Source: Candidatus Sumerlaeota bacterium (GTDB lineage: Bacteria; Sumerlaeota; Sumerlaeia; JAFGJS01). Taken from it: 36,323 nt of DNA. Location of the stretch: positions 1-36,323 of the forward strand of contig JAFGJS010000108.1 of the NCBI GenBank assembly GCA_016928995.1, in the 5' to 3' direction. Positions 18,532 to 34,755 of this stretch are shown here, piece after piece. The notes beneath the pieces were generated by a model. That model saw only the letters and a list, made by a program, of their open reading frames with translations. It was not told where the DNA came from and ran no database searches. The translations under genes and the position numbers were made by a program. How positions within the stretch are numbered: position 1 is the stretch's first letter; the number at the start of each line of letters is the position of its first letter.

Positions 18532-21099
18532 TTACTGCGCCTGTTCCGACGGCGCTGAGGGGAATGGGGCGCGAATTTCAATCAGCTGTCCGGCGTAGTT
18601 GCGCAGATCGATGCGGCCGACATCGATGGATTCCGCGGCGTTCGCCGGGCGCAGGCGCACGTGATAAATCTGCGGAGCAAGTCCCCGCGCTTCAAACATG
18701 CCTTGCGTATCCGTCTGGAACAAGCGCCCGGTGAGCCGCATGGGATATTCCTCATCGTCGAGTTCCTCGGGTTGCCATTCGAACATCAATGCAGCCTGAC
18801 CCAACGGCAGACCGGTGCTTTGCTCATAAGCGACGCCGCGGACGGAGATGTCGCGCAGGATCAGGTCGATCGGGTTTTCGCCCGGTCGCGGCTCCACGCG
18901 CTGGAAGGTTTGATAACGTTCAGTCGAGCCGGAGATTTGCAGCGCGCCGCAAATCAGGAGAGGCTCCAGGCTGGGCAAGCGCATCACGCAACTCGGACTG
19001 CGCAACGTTTTCTTGGCCGTCCAGGGATCGCCGCTGACGGGATCGTGGCCGAAGAGGGTGATCCGCGCGCGGCCATCTTCAAGCCGCAGGCCGTCCAGCA
19101 GAACCAGCCGGATAAAGAGATACGGTTCCGGCAAGGCGCGGAATTCGATCGGAGGCGGAGTAGAACTGCTTTGAACCGGGACGCGTTGCGATTCAAAAAC
19201 ATATGGCAGCGTTCGCCCCGGTTGACGGGGCATGCAATACGCAGTCCAATCGCCGGTTGCAAGCGTGAGACGAAATGCGCCGTTGCTGTCTGTGTCCGCG
19301 TGAGCCTGGATGCGCGCGGATTCCGGCTTATCCGGGATCGTGGCGGAGAGCGCTGTCACGCGCAGATCCGGCAACGGATCGCCGTTCGGATCAACGGCCC
19401 GGCCTGACACGATTTGCGGAGGATTCACGCGAATATCTCCCATGTCCGTTGGGCTTTGCTCCGGCAGAGCGACGGACTGGCGATGGAAGTTCATGCCATC
19501 CCGCGAGGCCAGCAGCGAGTAGTCGTCGGGATGATAAAATTCGACGTTAAAACGGCCATCAGCGTCAGATATCGCGCTCGCGCTGGACGAATCCTCCTCG
19601 CCGGATCGAACGAGGACGACGATGGCGTTATCAACGGGCGCGTTGGTCTGCGTATCGATCAGGCGTCCCGTGGCAAGATTGCCGGGCGTCAGCGCCAGCG
19701 TTTGTTGCGTAATTTGTCCCGCGGCGATTTCCACTGCGACCGGGCCAGCCGCGGCATATCCGTCCGTATCGAGGAAGAGCTGATAGGCGCCGGGCGGGAT
19801 TCCGCGCAAATGCAGCGTTCCGCCTTCGGTCCGCGCGGCGCCGTCAATAACGGCCGATTGCTGCGCGTTCGCCTCCGCTGTAGACATGCGCAGTTGAAAC
19901 TCCACTTCCGCCAACGGCAGACCGGTCTGTGCGTCGGCGAGACTCAATGACAACTCCCCATTTTGCGGCAAGCGCAATTCGACATCTTCCGCCGGGAGAT
20001 CGAGCGGGGGATATTGGATTTCGGTCGAAAGCTGCAGGTCAGCGCTGGGCAATTCATGCTCTTGATGCAGTTGCACGATGCATGGATCCGGCGGCAGCGC
20101 ATCGAAAAGGAATTCGCCGTTGTCGCCGGTGAACATGGATTGGCTAGCCTCATCCAGCCTTCCGGCGCGGCGTCCCAGTGTTTGCACGGTCGCCTGGACG
20201 CCCGGTATGGCGCGGCCGTCATAATCAATGACCCGGCCGGAGAGCGAGACGGCGGGCTCCAGTTCGATCTGGATGCGTTGCGGCTCCTGTTCGCCGCTGA
20301 CAGGATTGAGCATGCGCACATCGCGCTGCTCGGCGACATAGCCCTGCGCCGAGGCGCGAATTTGCTGGAACGGCGCAAACACCTGATCAAAAAAAGCCAT
20401 GCCGTCGCTGTTGGCGATTTGCGTGCGGCTGGTCGCCATTTGATTGGCTTGGGTTCGGCTGATGATTTGCACTTGCGCGCCGGCTAGCGGACTGCCGCTG
20501 TTCTCCAGCACTTCAACGGCGAGGGCGTATCCGGAAGCGAGCGTCAGGCGGACGGCGCTCGAGGTGATCCTGCTGTCGAGCTGAACCTCCGCCGAGTGCG
20601 AAGGAGCGTAGCCCTGCGCTTCAGCGACGACGCGGAGCTGAACTTCTCCTTTATAGCGCAGCGGACCGAGTTGAAACGCGCCGTCGCCGCCGGATTGGAC
20701 GCCGAATGTTTCGGGCGCGTCCAGCAAGACGCCGAACGGCAGCGGCTCGTGCGGCTCCAGCCGGATCGCCGCGCCAGAGATTGGCGCGTTGTCTGCGTTC
20801 AGCGCGACGCCGTAGATCCAGCCTTTGCAGGTTCCATCGCCGCTGAGCGCATTGTCACCAGATGCGGTTGATGTTTGCGGTGTAGCTGTATTGCGGCCGG
20901 CGCCGTCCGGGACAAAGGTGATCGTCGGGCCGTGATCGGCGGCTGCCGGATTAACGTTGCGCGGATCCATGACAGCGCCGGCCCCGCGATCCATGTCAGC
21001 GGGTCGCGACAGCCAGAACGCGATGCAGACGGCCGCCGCCAGCACGACGCCAATGACAAGACCGGCAATCCGGAATGTGTTTTTTGCAGGTTCGCTCAT
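18532..21099 (-). CDS. Membrane-anchored protein with repeated carboxypeptidase-regulatory-like domains
   Basis: The 855-residue protein has a short cytoplasmic N-terminus, one TM helix (about 10-31), and then a large extracytoplasmic part. That part is made of repeated prealbumin/CarboxypepD-regulatory-like beta sandwiches, each opening with a GxV.D..G..IPGV-type strand: GWIYGVALNADNAPISGA, LSGRVIDYDGRAIPGV, ATGRLIDTQTNAPVDNA, VSGRAVDPNGDPLPDLRV. Downstream strands follow the usual DxxGxFxF pattern (DADGRFNVEFY, DSNGAFRLTLA). Such proteins usually have structural or binding roles at the envelope; no catalytic domain is seen. The ATG at 21099 (MSEPAK) is preferred over 21135, which adds a basic stretch. 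It precedes the small lipoprotein gene with 93 bases between. Confidence 0.78.
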   Translation of the reverse strand: MSEPAKNTFRIAGLVIGVVLAAAVCIAFWLSRPADMDRGAGAVMDPRNVNPAAADHGPTITFVPDGAGRNTATPQTSTASGDNALSGDGTCKGWIYGVALNADNAPISGAAIRLEPHEPLPFGVLLDAPETFGVQSGGDGAFQLGPLRYKGEVQLRVVAEAQGYAPSHSAEVQLDSRITSSAVRLTLASGYALAVEVLENSGSPLAGAQVQIISRTQANQMATSRTQIANSDGMAFFDQVFAPFQQIRASAQGYVAEQRDVRMLNPVSGEQEPQRIQIELEPAVSLSGRVIDYDGRAIPGVQATVQTLGRRAGRLDEASQSMFTGDNGEFLFDALPPDPCIVQLHQEHELPSADLQLSTEIQYPPLDLPAEDVELRLPQNGELSLSLADAQTGLPLAEVEFQLRMSTAEANAQQSAVIDGAARTEGGTLHLRGIPPGAYQLFLDTDGYAAAGPVAVEIAAGQITQQTLALTPGNLATGRLIDTQTNAPVDNAIVVLVRSGEEDSSSASAISDADGRFNVEFYHPDDYSLLASRDGMNFHRQSVALPEQSPTDMGDIRVNPPQIVSGRAVDPNGDPLPDLRVTALSATIPDKPESARIQAHADTDSNGAFRLTLATGDWTAYCMPRQPGRTLPYVFESQRVPVQSSSTPPPIEFRALPEPYLFIRLVLLDGLRLEDGRARITLFGHDPVSGDPWTAKKTLRSPSCVMRLPSLEPLLICGALQISGSTERYQTFQRVEPRPGENPIDLILRDISVRGVAYEQSTGLPLGQAALMFEWQPEELDDEEYPMRLTGRLFQTDTQGMFEARGLAPQIYHVRLRPANAAESIDVGRIDLRNYAGQLIEIRAPFPSAPSEQAQ

Positions 21100-21229
21100 A
21101 AGGATATTCGCCCGTTTCACGCGCTGAATGAGCATGACTCGATCGAAGCGTCATCGCAACGGCTTTTTGATGCATGCCGGGCTTGATTGCATCGCGCGCA
21201 TATGGCAACATTCCATTTTGCGCGATGCT

Positions 21230-24408: not shown

Positions 24409-27168
24409 TCATGAGTCTTCTTCCACTGTCCGTCGTCCGCGCAAGGCGGCTTCGATGGGCTTGGAATCGAGGAAATCCTCATCAGGCAATTTGAAGGTGA
24501 AATAGATGCGATAGCTCAGGTAATCGCTGAGGCTTTTGTCATTATTGCCATTGTCCTCATTGTCGTCGTAGCGGTCGTCGAAGTAATTGTCGTCCAGATC
24601 GAGTTCGAAATTCATCACGCCGTCGTGCAGGTCGCGCTTGAAGAGCAGGGAGGCGTGATTCAGGTCCGATGTCTCGAATTCGTAATCCGCGCGCAGTTCC
24701 AAGGCCCATTTCGGTCCGATGCGAGTGGTGAATTCGAGATACGCATAGTAGCGATTATCGCCTTCATCGTAGCGGTCGTCATCGTTCGTATCGTCTTCGT
24801 CAACCTGGTCTTCGAGCAGCTTGCGGTTTTCCTCTTCGAGCGGATCATCGTCGAGATCGTGACTGAAGGCGAGACCAAGATTGCTCCACCAGTTGTCGTG
24901 CAACGGCCGCAAACCTAGATTCAGGCTGGTGCGATAGACGTCGCCTTCATACATGTATTCGTCGTTATGCGCGCGGTATTGGATCGTGCTGAGCGTATGG
25001 CGGTTTTCAATGGTGAAAACCTCGCGCGGCGAGCGATAACGGATGCTCCCCGCCAACTGCTGGATTATTTCGTTGGGCGTGATGTCGGAGCCGGATTGCA
25101 GGTTGCGTTCCGCGGCCAGAATGACGTTCAAATCCGGGTAGCGCAGCCGGTAGTTCAAGGTGGCTTTGATCCAATGCTCGCGCAGGCGGTAATCATAAAG
25201 ATCGCTGCGCGCCGTATGATTGCCGATGGACTCGTACCATTCGCTCAGGCTGTCCTCGGCGCCTTCCCGGATGAAGTGCTCCGCTTCGCCCGTGAGCGAG
25301 CGGCTGAAGCGATGAGTCAGCAAGGTGTCGGCGTCGTAATATACGAAGTTGCTTTGCACTTCGCTCAGGCTGCGTTCATCCCTGCCGACGAGGAAGGTTT
25401 CATAGTCGTCATCAGTGAAGACAAGGCGGCTGCCGTTCTCGCGGATGCCGTCCTCGGCGTGCTCTCGATCATCGATGTCGAAATCGAAGGTGTAGCGCTC
25501 GCGGTCCATCTGGCCGAAACCCGCGCCCAGTTTCATCATCAGGTTGGTGTCGTCGCTGAAGGCGTGGAAGAACATCAAACGGTTATAGACATCGTAGCCT
25601 TCCACCCAGGCGTCGTCTTCCCGGCTGCCGGAGTTCAGGCCTTTGTCCAGATTGCGGAAGGCTCGCACATTCAGGTTGTAGTAATATGGCGAGCGGAAGA
25701 TGTTCAGCCACGAGGTCGAGAGAGTCAGTTCCGGCAGGCGCTTGCTCACTGCGCTATAGCGATCCGGATCAATGCCTTCGTCATCCAGATTGTTATCGTC
25801 GGTCCATAATCCTTCCTGCAGCAGCGTCAGTTCATCGTCGGTGTCATAATCGCGGTCGTCGTCGCCCGGTTCGGCATAATCCGTGATGCGGTCGCGGCTG
25901 ATGCGCTCCTTGCGTTCCACGAGCGCGCGCAGCAGGTAGTAATCGTCCACCCAATCGAGCGAAGAGCGGATGCGGCGCTCCGCAAGCCGGCCGCGTTCGT
26001 AGTCATCCCGGTTTTTCTTGTCGATGATGTCGTAATAAATCTCGGGATCGGACATCCAGTCGGCGTTGAAGCGCCACCAGAGGCGGCGTGTGATACGGGA
26101 GCGATGTTTCCAGTCGGCGATCCAGCGGTCCGCCTCATTGTCGTCGCGCACGTTGTAATCGTCGTCGCTGATGCGGTAGAGTTCCCAGTCTCCCGCGTGT
26201 TTTTCATAGTTGAGACTATAGCCGTGCTGCATGCCGTAGCCCACGCCCCGGTCGCCGAAATAATCGAGATGGTATTTCACGTCGCCGTGCGAGCGGAAGA
26301 TCAGCTCGTCCTCGTCTTCAAACGAGGGCTCCATGCTGTGATACTTCCATTGATACGTGCCCATGACGAAGCCGCCCAGATCGTTGTCGTTTCCGAAAAC
26401 GAAGTGCCACGCTTGCCGTTCCTCGATGCTGCGATTGAACATCGCAAAATACATCACGGGCTTTTCGCGGATGTATAGCACGGCGTTGCGCATGAAGATG
26501 CGGTCTTGCGGGAAAAGGACCGCCTCGCGCGCCTTGATTTCGTACATCGGGCGCGGGAAATCGTCGGTGGTGAAACGCGATTTTTGGAAGAGATACTGGT
26601 TTTCGTTCAGTTGCCGGAAACTTGGCGCGTCGCTGTCCTGCTCGTTCGGATCAGCGCGGAAATAAACATGCTGGTATTGGCCGTCGGACTGATATGCCAC
26701 GCCTTCGCTGCTGCCAAAGTTGTAGTACAGGCGCGTGGCCTTGATTTCGGATTTATTGACCGTGAGCAACACGTCGCCTTCGGCTTCGATCTCCTCGCTG
26801 ACGATGTTGATCGTCACGCGGTCGGCTTCAAGGCTGAAGCGCTCGCCGGCGGTGATGCGCGTGCGTCGCCGTCCGTAAACGACCTGGGTTTTGTCGTCCA
26901 GCACGAGGGAGTCGATGGAGCGGATGCTGATGCCTTCGGCGCCGCTGAATTGATAGCCCGCGCTCACAGCCTCTTCCTCGCCGCCGTCCCCTTCTTCTTC
27001 CTCAAGCCCCTCCAGGCGCGCCATGGCGCGGTCCACGGCGGTTGCGCGCGCGCGGAGCCTGTCGTATTCCTCCGCGTCGAAACCTTCCGGGATTTCCTGG
27101 GGCTTGGCTGCGGCGTTCAGCGCGCACAACACCCATGCCAGCGCCATCAGCGCGAATATGCGTTTCAT
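24409..27168 (-). CDS. LptD/OstA-like outer-membrane protein, Asp-rich
   Basis: The 919-residue protein has a signal peptide (MKRIFALMALAWVLCALNAA) and a Glu-rich linker. An OstA/LptA-like jelly-roll segment follows (about 75-170, with TRITAGERFSLEADRVTINI and EIEAEGDVLL). A long stretch of alternating beta strands, expected to form a barrel, runs to residue 919. The NAVLYIREKPVMYFAMFNRS segment corresponds to the strand-PY region of LptD, which inserts LPS into the outer leaflet. Its sequence is very divergent and has many Asp-rich segments (GDDDRDYDTDDE, DEDDTNDDDRYDEGDN, NYFDDRYDDNEDNGNND). The usual disulfide-forming Cys pairs of E. coli LptD are not seen. A promoter-like sequence lies at 27219-27248. 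Confidence 0.72.
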   Translation of the reverse strand: MKRIFALMALAWVLCALNAAAKPQEIPEGFDAEEYDRLRARATAVDRAMARLEGLEEEEGDGGEEEAVSAGYQFSGAEGISIRSIDSLVLDDKTQVVYGRRRTRITAGERFSLEADRVTINIVSEEIEAEGDVLLTVNKSEIKATRLYYNFGSSEGVAYQSDGQYQHVYFRADPNEQDSDAPSFRQLNENQYLFQKSRFTTDDFPRPMYEIKAREAVLFPQDRIFMRNAVLYIREKPVMYFAMFNRSIEERQAWHFVFGNDNDLGGFVMGTYQWKYHSMEPSFEDEDELIFRSHGDVKYHLDYFGDRGVGYGMQHGYSLNYEKHAGDWELYRISDDDYNVRDDNEADRWIADWKHRSRITRRLWWRFNADWMSDPEIYYDIIDKKNRDDYERGRLAERRIRSSLDWVDDYYLLRALVERKERISRDRITDYAEPGDDDRDYDTDDELTLLQEGLWTDDNNLDDEGIDPDRYSAVSKRLPELTLSTSWLNIFRSPYYYNLNVRAFRNLDKGLNSGSREDDAWVEGYDVYNRLMFFHAFSDDTNLMMKLGAGFGQMDRERYTFDFDIDDREHAEDGIRENGSRLVFTDDDYETFLVGRDERSLSEVQSNFVYYDADTLLTHRFSRSLTGEAEHFIREGAEDSLSEWYESIGNHTARSDLYDYRLREHWIKATLNYRLRYPDLNVILAAERNLQSGSDITPNEIIQQLAGSIRYRSPREVFTIENRHTLSTIQYRAHNDEYMYEGDVYRTSLNLGLRPLHDNWWSNLGLAFSHDLDDDPLEEENRKLLEDQVDEDDTNDDDRYDEGDNRYYAYLEFTTRIGPKWALELRADYEFETSDLNHASLLFKRDLHDGVMNFELDLDDNYFDDRYDDNEDNGNNDKSLSDYLSYRIYFTFKLPDEDFLDSKPIEAALRGRRTVEEDS

Positions 27169-32646: not shown

Positions 32647-34755
32647 TCATCGCCTGGGAGCGTCTGTGCGGAAGGGAGAGGCGGGCAGGCCTTCCGCGTT
32701 GTAGAGATTGCACTGCGGATTATCCGCCCAACCGTAGCGCACGGCCGCGGGCTGCGTAATCTGAGTGCTGCTCACCACGACGGAGCGGCCTTCGATCCGC
32801 GCGTCGGCCCAGACGAATTTCCCGTCGGCGCCGGCGATGGCGAAACCCGCAAGTTTTCCATTGTTGCCTTGGGCGACGAGTCCGCTGCCCACGCTGTCGA
32901 ACGATAGCCGCGCCTTTCCGTCCCTTTCGAACTGGACGGAGCGGTAAAGCGGTCCGGATGCGACAAGGTACGGCCCGCCGTCATAGACGAGTTTTCGTGC
33001 GGCGAGCGTCAGACGTTGGGCCGCGTCCTGCTTGTTGCGTGGATTGATCTCGTTTGATTCGCCGATGTCGATGGTCACGGCCATCGCCGTTTCCGGTTCG
33101 TTCAGCGTCAGGAGCTGCGCCTCGCGCAGCAAGGCCCACGGAGAGTCTCCCGGCTCGGCTTGGCGCTCCTTGAAGTTCGCCAGTTGCACGTAGAGCAAAG
33201 GAAAATCGCCCTGCCCGAAGTTCGCGCGCCAATCGCGCAGCATCAGCGGAAATAGCGAGCGGTATTGCGCCGCTCGTTCGAAACTATCCGTGTTCTCTTC
33301 GCCCTGATACCAGATCGCGCCGCGGATTGCGAACGGAAGCAGGGGATGAATCATACCATTGAACAGCGCGCCCGGAGTATGCAGGGAATGAATGTATGTT
33401 TGGGGGCGTTTGGGCAGCTCCGTCAACGGCAGGCTGATCCGGTATTTCCATTCGCCAGAGATGGAAACATCGCTGCCGTCTTCGAACAGGATATGATTGT
33501 CTCCGCTTTCGCCGGTCAATCCGCCGTCGCCATGCAGGTCGATCACACGGATCGCGATGACATTTGGTCCTGGTTGCAGGACGTAGAGCGGAATCGAATA
33601 GCGTCGTGGAACGTTCCAGAAGCGGGTCCATTCCTGGTTCACGTCCATCGTGCCGCCAATGTAATGTCCATTGATCCAGACCATGTCCAAGTCGTCGATG
33701 CCGCGCTCGAACAACAGCATGGCGGCCTGGCTGGCGCGCTGTCCGCTGAGTGCCACGACGCGGCGGATCCATACTGCGCCGTCGAATTGCGCCAGTTCCG
33801 GAGCTTGCTTCCAGCCATAAGGTTCGTTGAAGGTTTTCCAATTCGAGTCGTCAAATTCTGCCCGGCGCCAACGTTTGGCTGTTTTATCTTTTGATGATTC
33901 GCGTTTGTCCAATTGGCGAATCCATGATTTCAAGCGTTGATCGAGAAACGATTCGCGGTGTTTTTCCGGCATGTCGGCGAACTTGATCCAGCGCTGCGCT
34001 TCATCGCGGTAATCCGGATGAGACAGGAGACTTTTGCAGCTGGTCCACGTTTCTGCTGGCGAGCGCGGCACGCTGCAATCAATCAGGCCGATGGGGACGT
34101 TAAGTCTGCGATGCAACTCTCGTCCGTAGAAATACCCCACGGCGCTGAATTCGCGGACGCTGTTGGGCGTGCAGAGCGACCAGCCCGTTGATCCTTTGAG
34201 GTCATCTTTCGGCTCCGGCGAAAGTTCATCTTCAAGTTCGATGATCCGGATATCGGGCCAGTGCGCCTTGGAGACTTCGATCTGTGAATTGACGACGGCG
34301 CTCACGGGCAATTCCATATTCGCTTCTCCGCCGCAGAGCCAGACCTCGCCGATCATCACATCGCGCAGTTCGATTGTTGCTTGCCCCTGCGCGATGAGCA
34401 CGTAAGGGCCGCCTGCCTTGCCCAGCTCCAGCCAGGCCATCCATTTGCCGTCGCAGTCCGCTCGCGTCAGGTCCGCCGCCAGAGGTTCAAGCCGCCGTTC
34501 GCCGCTTTCCTCCAACGATTCCCGCGCCAGCGTCACCTGCACAACGCCGCCAGGATCCGACCAGCCCCATACGGGGACGGTCTTTTCCTGCTGCAAGACC
34601 ATGTGATCTCCGAAGATCTTGGCGAACCGCAAGTTCTCCGCATTAGGTTTCGCCATCCCGGGCAGGCAGATGCGTCCGCATCCTGCCGCTAAAACGGCCA
34701 GCAGCGCGAAGATCGCCGCCAATGAGCTCGATTGCCGCATGGATTGCTGTTTCAT
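32647..34755 (-). CDS. Sialate O-acetylesterase-like lipoprotein lacking catalytic Ser and His
   Basis: The 702-residue protein has a lipobox at Cys26 (LLAVLAAGC) and the full SASA-family layout. It has an N-terminal sandwich (FAKIFGDHMVLQQEKTVPVWG), the SGNH-like block 1 region GEVWLCGGEANMELP, an inserted GH2-like jelly roll (about 280-410, with DDSNWKTFNEPYGW and VWIRRVVALSG), then GAIWYQGEENTD and AVTIDIGESNEINPRNKQDA. In active members block 1 reads GQSNM and the last block reads DIHPKNK; here they are GEANM (Ala145) and EINPRNK (Asn571). Both catalytic residues are therefore replaced, suggesting a carbohydrate-binding pseudoenzyme or an altered mechanism. The reading frame is intact. 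It runs on the same strand as the RND gene, with 77 bases between. Confidence 0.85.
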   Translation of the reverse strand: MKQQSMRQSSSLAAIFALLAVLAAGCGRICLPGMAKPNAENLRFAKIFGDHMVLQQEKTVPVWGWSDPGGVVQVTLARESLEESGERRLEPLAADLTRADCDGKWMAWLELGKAGGPYVLIAQGQATIELRDVMIGEVWLCGGEANMELPVSAVVNSQIEVSKAHWPDIRIIELEDELSPEPKDDLKGSTGWSLCTPNSVREFSAVGYFYGRELHRRLNVPIGLIDCSVPRSPAETWTSCKSLLSHPDYRDEAQRWIKFADMPEKHRESFLDQRLKSWIRQLDKRESSKDKTAKRWRRAEFDDSNWKTFNEPYGWKQAPELAQFDGAVWIRRVVALSGQRASQAAMLLFERGIDDLDMVWINGHYIGGTMDVNQEWTRFWNVPRRYSIPLYVLQPGPNVIAIRVIDLHGDGGLTGESGDNHILFEDGSDVSISGEWKYRISLPLTELPKRPQTYIHSLHTPGALFNGMIHPLLPFAIRGAIWYQGEENTDSFERAAQYRSLFPLMLRDWRANFGQGDFPLLYVQLANFKERQAEPGDSPWALLREAQLLTLNEPETAMAVTIDIGESNEINPRNKQDAAQRLTLAARKLVYDGGPYLVASGPLYRSVQFERDGKARLSFDSVGSGLVAQGNNGKLAGFAIAGADGKFVWADARIEGRSVVVSSTQITQPAAVRYGWADNPQCNLYNAEGLPASPFRTDAPRR

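Follow-up and report, generated by a model that had tools for sequence, protein, structure and literature searches.

A CE20 (SASA) homologue with replaced catalytic residues and a retained predicted fold in a Candidatus Sumerlaeota bacterium

Catalysis and glycan binding in described esterases

The catalytic residues of CE20 enzymes have been established by structures and mutants (PMC12313940). In Fl8CE20_II (9h4u), they comprise the nucleophile Ser112, the base His515, the water-holding Asp513, and an oxyanion hole formed by Gly199 and the Gln of the GQSNM motif (PMC12313940). The equivalent Gln18 of Escherichia coli NanS, adjacent to Ser19, likewise forms the oxyanion hole (PMC9063846). Replacing the water-holding Asp by Glu (D513E) reduced the kcat of Fl8CE20_II from 9.70 to 0.43 per s, about 20-fold, and the D513A mutant was inactive (PMC12313940). 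Fl8CE20_II, PpCE20_II (9ega) and XacXaeA (7kmm) share one domain order: an N-terminal beta-sandwich, a split SGNH domain with an inserted ancillary sandwich, and a C-terminal beta-sandwich. Members of the fucoxyloglucan cluster within CE20 conserve Trp329-Asn330 of XacXaeA (PMC12313940).

Binding without catalysis is known from another SGNH-type esterase, CtCE2 of Clostridium thermocellum (2wao, 2wab), whose active site binds cellulose non-catalytically (PMC2661963). Its nucleophile mutant S612A bound cellohexaose about 8-fold tighter. The catalytic His is a main binding contact, and the H791A mutation lowers affinity about 20-fold (PMC2661963). We found no report of inactive CE20 proteins in the open-access papers searched.

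A full-length CE20 homologue with an altered active site

The window analyzed here, the whole 36,323-nucleotide stretch of a Candidatus Sumerlaeota contig, carries a gene for a 702-aa CE20/SASA homologue with a replaced active site (32647..34755, minus strand). The frame, read from 34755 to 32647, starts with ATG and has no internal stop or frameshift, and the codon-position GC along the gene is normal; on the plus strand, stops interrupt this span. The initial annotation had described an intact frame, which holds, but on the minus strand. It had also named GEVWLC, NMELP, GAIWYQGEENTD and NPRNK as retained family landmarks, and all of them are found in the translation. Pfam SASA (PF03629) matches the protein with 46 bits against a cut-off of 24.8, the SASA stretch covering residues 476-565. 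Full-length matches to solved CE20 enzymes (9h4u, E 1e-138; 9ega, 4e-120; 7kmm, 7e-120), with the 9h4u alignment spanning residues 38-698, place the protein in CE20 by descent.

The protein has the domain order of Fl8CE20_II, PpCE20_II and XacXaeA, and shares with them the fold and most invariant framework residues. It begins with a predicted lipoprotein signal peptide (residues 1-26, 34678..34755), in which a PROSITE-type pattern at residues 16-26 ends in the lipobox LAAG-C26. By this pattern the protein is likely a lipoprotein; a lipobox-like string occurs at the matching place in 25 of the 112 aligned family members. An N-terminal beta-sandwich (about residues 41-131, 34363..34635), delimited by the 9h4u alignment and the model strands, is followed by the first half of the SGNH domain with blocks I and II (about residues 132-245, 34021..34362). 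The second half, with blocks III and V (about residues 455-592, 32980..33393), includes the Pfam SASA stretch; both halves are also supported by the 9h4u alignment and by fold matches, and the first half by the model. Between them lies a beta-sandwich ancillary domain resembling the GH2 sugar-binding domain (about residues 291-445, 33421..33885). It is indicated by the 9h4u alignment, by GH2 fold matches over residues 281-457, and by a PF02837 match (E 3.8e-4) below the Pfam cut-off. The C-terminal beta-sandwich (about residues 593-699, 32659..32979; 9h4u alignment and model) is 62% identical to that of L084, an intact relative from the same class. All these features lie on the minus strand.

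Within the ancillary domain, the aromatic loop Trp380-Asn381 is retained, its WNVPR sequence resembling Trp329-Asn330 of XacXaeA. Immediately before this cleft-lining loop is an extra loop, DVNQEWTRF (residues 371-379, 33619-33645, minus strand), modeled with low confidence, where most relatives have a gap.

An AlphaFold2 model, built with 57 aligned rows, reached a pLDDT of 91.2 and a pTM of 0.88. Its core superposes on XacXaeA (7kmm) with a Z of 49.8 and 1.6 Å over 432 residues, with the N- and C-terminal beta-sandwiches around the SGNH core, and on SIAE with about 2 Å over 435 residues. The intact L084, modeled likewise as a control, gave 1.6 Å over 428 residues to 7kmm. The substitutions thus leave the overall fold intact, as predicted by the model. 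A disturbed domain packing, raised by the 8.7 Å over 618 residues to 9h4u, was rejected, as the L084 control gives 8.9 Å over 619. Since the intact relative has the same large deviation, the placement of the ancillary domain is not peculiar to the window protein. A further structural match of the CE20 core and sandwiches is to the tailspike of the cyanopodophage Pan3 (9vyh; Z 20, 3.6 Å over 329 residues), a model-based likeness that may point to esterases of the CE20 type in phage tails.

Unlike Fl8CE20_II, PpCE20_II and XacXaeA, the window protein has the whole water-mediated triad and the oxyanion hole replaced. In the alignment with 9h4u, GQSN has become GEAN, with Glu144 (GAA) and Ala145 (GCG) in place of the oxyanion Gln111 and the nucleophile Ser112 (34321..34326, minus strand). 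Block II is altered as a whole, from SWGGT to SVPRS, so that Pro230 and Arg231 (CGC) stand for Gly198 and the oxyanion-hole Gly199 (34063..34068, minus strand). DIHP reads EINP: Glu569 (GAG; 33049..33051, minus strand) takes the place of the water-anchoring Asp513, a position occupied by Asp or Asn in 103 of the 111 relatives, and Asn571 (AAT; 33043..33045, minus strand) that of the base His515, which is H in 108 of 110 relatives. Glu486 of WYQGE is retained, and a three-residue insertion lies a little downstream of WYQGEEN. No Ser or His has been gained beside the lost positions in the sequence; the initial annotation had proposed that a Ser and His from elsewhere, occupying the same places in space, would refute its reading. 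Its central claim, that Ser and His are replaced by Ala145 and Asn571 on a retained scaffold, is confirmed by the alignment with Ser112 and His515. However, its count of two lost catalytic residues was too low, because Glu144, Arg231 and Glu569 are changes too, five in total, and the replacement is more thorough than claimed. The core fold is also shared with mammalian SIAE (8f9o and relatives; 8f9p is its S128A mutant), which lacks the ancillary domain and keeps Ser and His, the opposite of what is seen here.

The alignment of 111 relatives and the window protein has 57 near-invariant columns (at least 93% conserved), the catalytic ones among them being Q in 109, S in 109, G in 103 and H in 108 of the relatives. 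The window protein departs at seven of the 57, namely those of Gln111, Ser112, Gly198, Gly199 and His515 and two conservative swaps (I to L and F to L), and the median sequence at one. Altered columns thus make up four of the four catalytic, but three of the 53 other near-invariant columns (one-sided Fisher p about 9e-5). With Ser and His omitted, because these two had prompted the finding, both remaining near-invariant catalytic columns are altered (p about 0.007, calculated by hand from the same counts). Judged by these columns, the clustering of changes on catalytic positions is not due to chance.

Relatives and genomic surroundings

The comparison took in about 220 homologues belonging to several phyla, the best relatives being 43-48% identical. 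GQSN is present in 229 of their 232 aligned pieces, a total in which some genes appear twice, and neither GEAN nor the His-to-Asn change occurs in any of the 232. Glu at the anchor position is found in two relatives, both with His kept. The search for a clade sharing GEAN and the His-to-Asn change covered the class (39 genomes), the phylum (40), an order of 9, 80 GTDB loci, viral contigs, 392 genomes from the Planctomycetota (the phylum of L010) and 395 from the phylum of L003. No such clade was found in these sets, an absence that is incomplete, as both large-phylum sets are samples, reading within the L003-phylum set was confined to the best matches, and the scan of GTDB relied on exact peptide words. 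Among the homologues checked, the GEAN/EINP protein is a singleton by its aligned sequence. In a tree of 104 proteins it has no settled place among the intact relatives.

Other replacements were found elsewhere. L110 (G038:C372; the same gene in L206), from the same class, is open over about 560 aa and reads GQGN, SN and RVQS: Ser is changed to Gly, Gly-Gly to Ser-Asn, and DIHP to RVQS, so that Ser, Gly-Gly, anchor and His are all lost. Like the window protein, it has lost catalytic residues within an open frame. It differs in the replacement residues, in the number of altered near-invariant columns (12 of 57 versus 7), and in lacking the ancillary domain, judged by its length; the tree does not settle how it is related to the window gene. 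L184 (G138:C31), a SASA paralogue with an open frame, has GQSH, a broken WYQGE and DLRI for DIHP, and its genome also has an intact SASA copy, L146. As L110 and L184 carry different replacements, the loss of catalytic residues seems, from the alignments, to be a rare event that has nevertheless occurred repeatedly. Recoding of the nucleophile, for example to selenocysteine, was considered as well, since relatives had been flagged with one in-frame stop. It was rejected: wherever the stop was seen, it proved to be the ordinary C-terminal stop, and these relatives have Ser as nucleophile.

The gene is outside any polysaccharide utilisation locus. A gap of 77 bases separates it from the downstream gene on the same strand, which encodes an HpnN-like RND protein; upstream, in divergent orientation, is a PMT_2-like glycosyltransferase gene cut off by the window end. 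Flagellar, O-antigen-ligase-like, histidine kinase, TPR and HpnN-like genes are the recognizable genes of the window. HpnN-like proteins are encoded in 29 of the 39 class genomes, yet in five relatives no SASA gene was beside an HpnN-like gene, within 17-20 kb around it. The other window neighbors tested in those five gave one weak histidine-kinase match only, and the intact L084 adjoins a polysaccharide deacetylase. The functional hint that the initial annotation had taken from the RND exporter and the glycosyltransferase therefore did not hold up. Because the neighborhood is not conserved, the surroundings give no guide to function, and an operon-based function was ruled out.

Two other proteins of the window are worth mentioning. 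A 919-aa protein (24409-27168, minus strand) with a signal-peptide-like start is rich in Asp, Glu and Tyr and has no match in Pfam or NCBIfam; judged by eye only, it resembles outer-membrane barrels of the LptD type. An 867-aa protein (18532-21135, minus strand) has repeated carboxypeptidase-regulatory-like domains and a weak match to the model of the anammox S-layer glycoprotein Kustd1514.

Probable loss of the esterase mechanism and its possible outcomes

We favor, with a probability of roughly 55%, a catalytically dead CE20 homologue, folded and probably anchored in the membrane, that is presumably retained as a putative non-catalytic glycan-binding lipoprotein. The sequence argues strongly for the loss of the CE20 mechanism: because nucleophile, base and oxyanion hole are all missing, the protein would not deacetylate by the CE20 route. 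Glycan binding is weakly suggested, by analogy with CtCE2. The cleft between the SGNH and ancillary domains, with its aromatic loop W380-N381, may, less surely, still bind glycan chains, and the match of Trp380-Asn381 to XacXaeA suggests, no more, a hemicellulose-like ligand. As a guess, Glu144 and Arg231, at the two oxyanion-facing positions, could fill the acetyl pocket through a salt bridge, or alternatively could adapt the former pocket to an acidic sugar. CtCE2 itself belongs to family CE2 and is active with Ser and His retained, whereas the window protein is a CE20 member that has lost both. The His that aids binding in CtCE2 is among the lost residues, which speaks against glycan binding, and the lack of a polysaccharide utilisation locus and of any relative with the same substitutions in the sets searched speaks against the favored reading as a whole.

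The main rival, which we hold to be possible but rather unlikely, is a gene out of use and in early decay, whose scaffold looks conserved merely because the loss is recent. It would fit with this being the only SASA gene in the source genome (estimated 92% complete), with changes unshared by any relative in an order that has no second genome in the sets searched, and with an end branch of 0.82 in the tree versus a median of 0.49. Yet decay should hit positions at random, and random decay is disfavored because the changes concentrate at the active site; 702 codons without stop or frameshift and a normal codon-position GC do not look like decay either. A sequencing, binning or assembly error is hardly credible. 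The sequence is a single contig from an assembly of 161, but five or six independent errors would be required, all confined to catalytic codons and leaving the frame intact, and on this ground we ruled it out. The initial annotation had proposed that close relatives with GQSN/DIHP would point to such an error. Homologues do carry GQSN/DIHP, but they do not point to an error because none is a close relative.

The pocket might instead have been rebuilt for a different reaction, with Glu144, Glu569 and Arg231 doing acid/base chemistry on an acidic sugar, which we regard as improbable. The replacements are not inert, since two Glu and one Arg stand for Gln, Asp and Gly while Glu486 is kept, and the remodeled block II and the insertion past WYQGEEN would agree with such a rebuilding. 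However, we found no known SGNH enzyme with the same residue set in the open-access papers searched, and two relatives that keep His likewise have Glu at the anchor position. The broader proposal, that Glu144, Glu569, Asn571 and Arg231 have turned an SGNH esterase pocket into a receptor for acidic sugars or a new active site, is equally improbable. That the protein remains an esterase through other residues is very improbable: fold and aromatic sugar loop are retained, but the nucleophile and base have been lost together with both oxyanion residues, and the sequence offers no new Ser or His nearby.

The non-catalytic CE20 homologue that we favor would be a pseudoenzyme candidate apparently undescribed in CE20, though of a known type of evolutionary event. 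SASA proteins are commonly annotated as sialate O-acetylesterases by family match alone, and the window protein would get this name despite lacking every catalytic residue. Moreover, its five changes provide a ready set of mutants to dissect the role of each residue in the recently described water-mediated triad.
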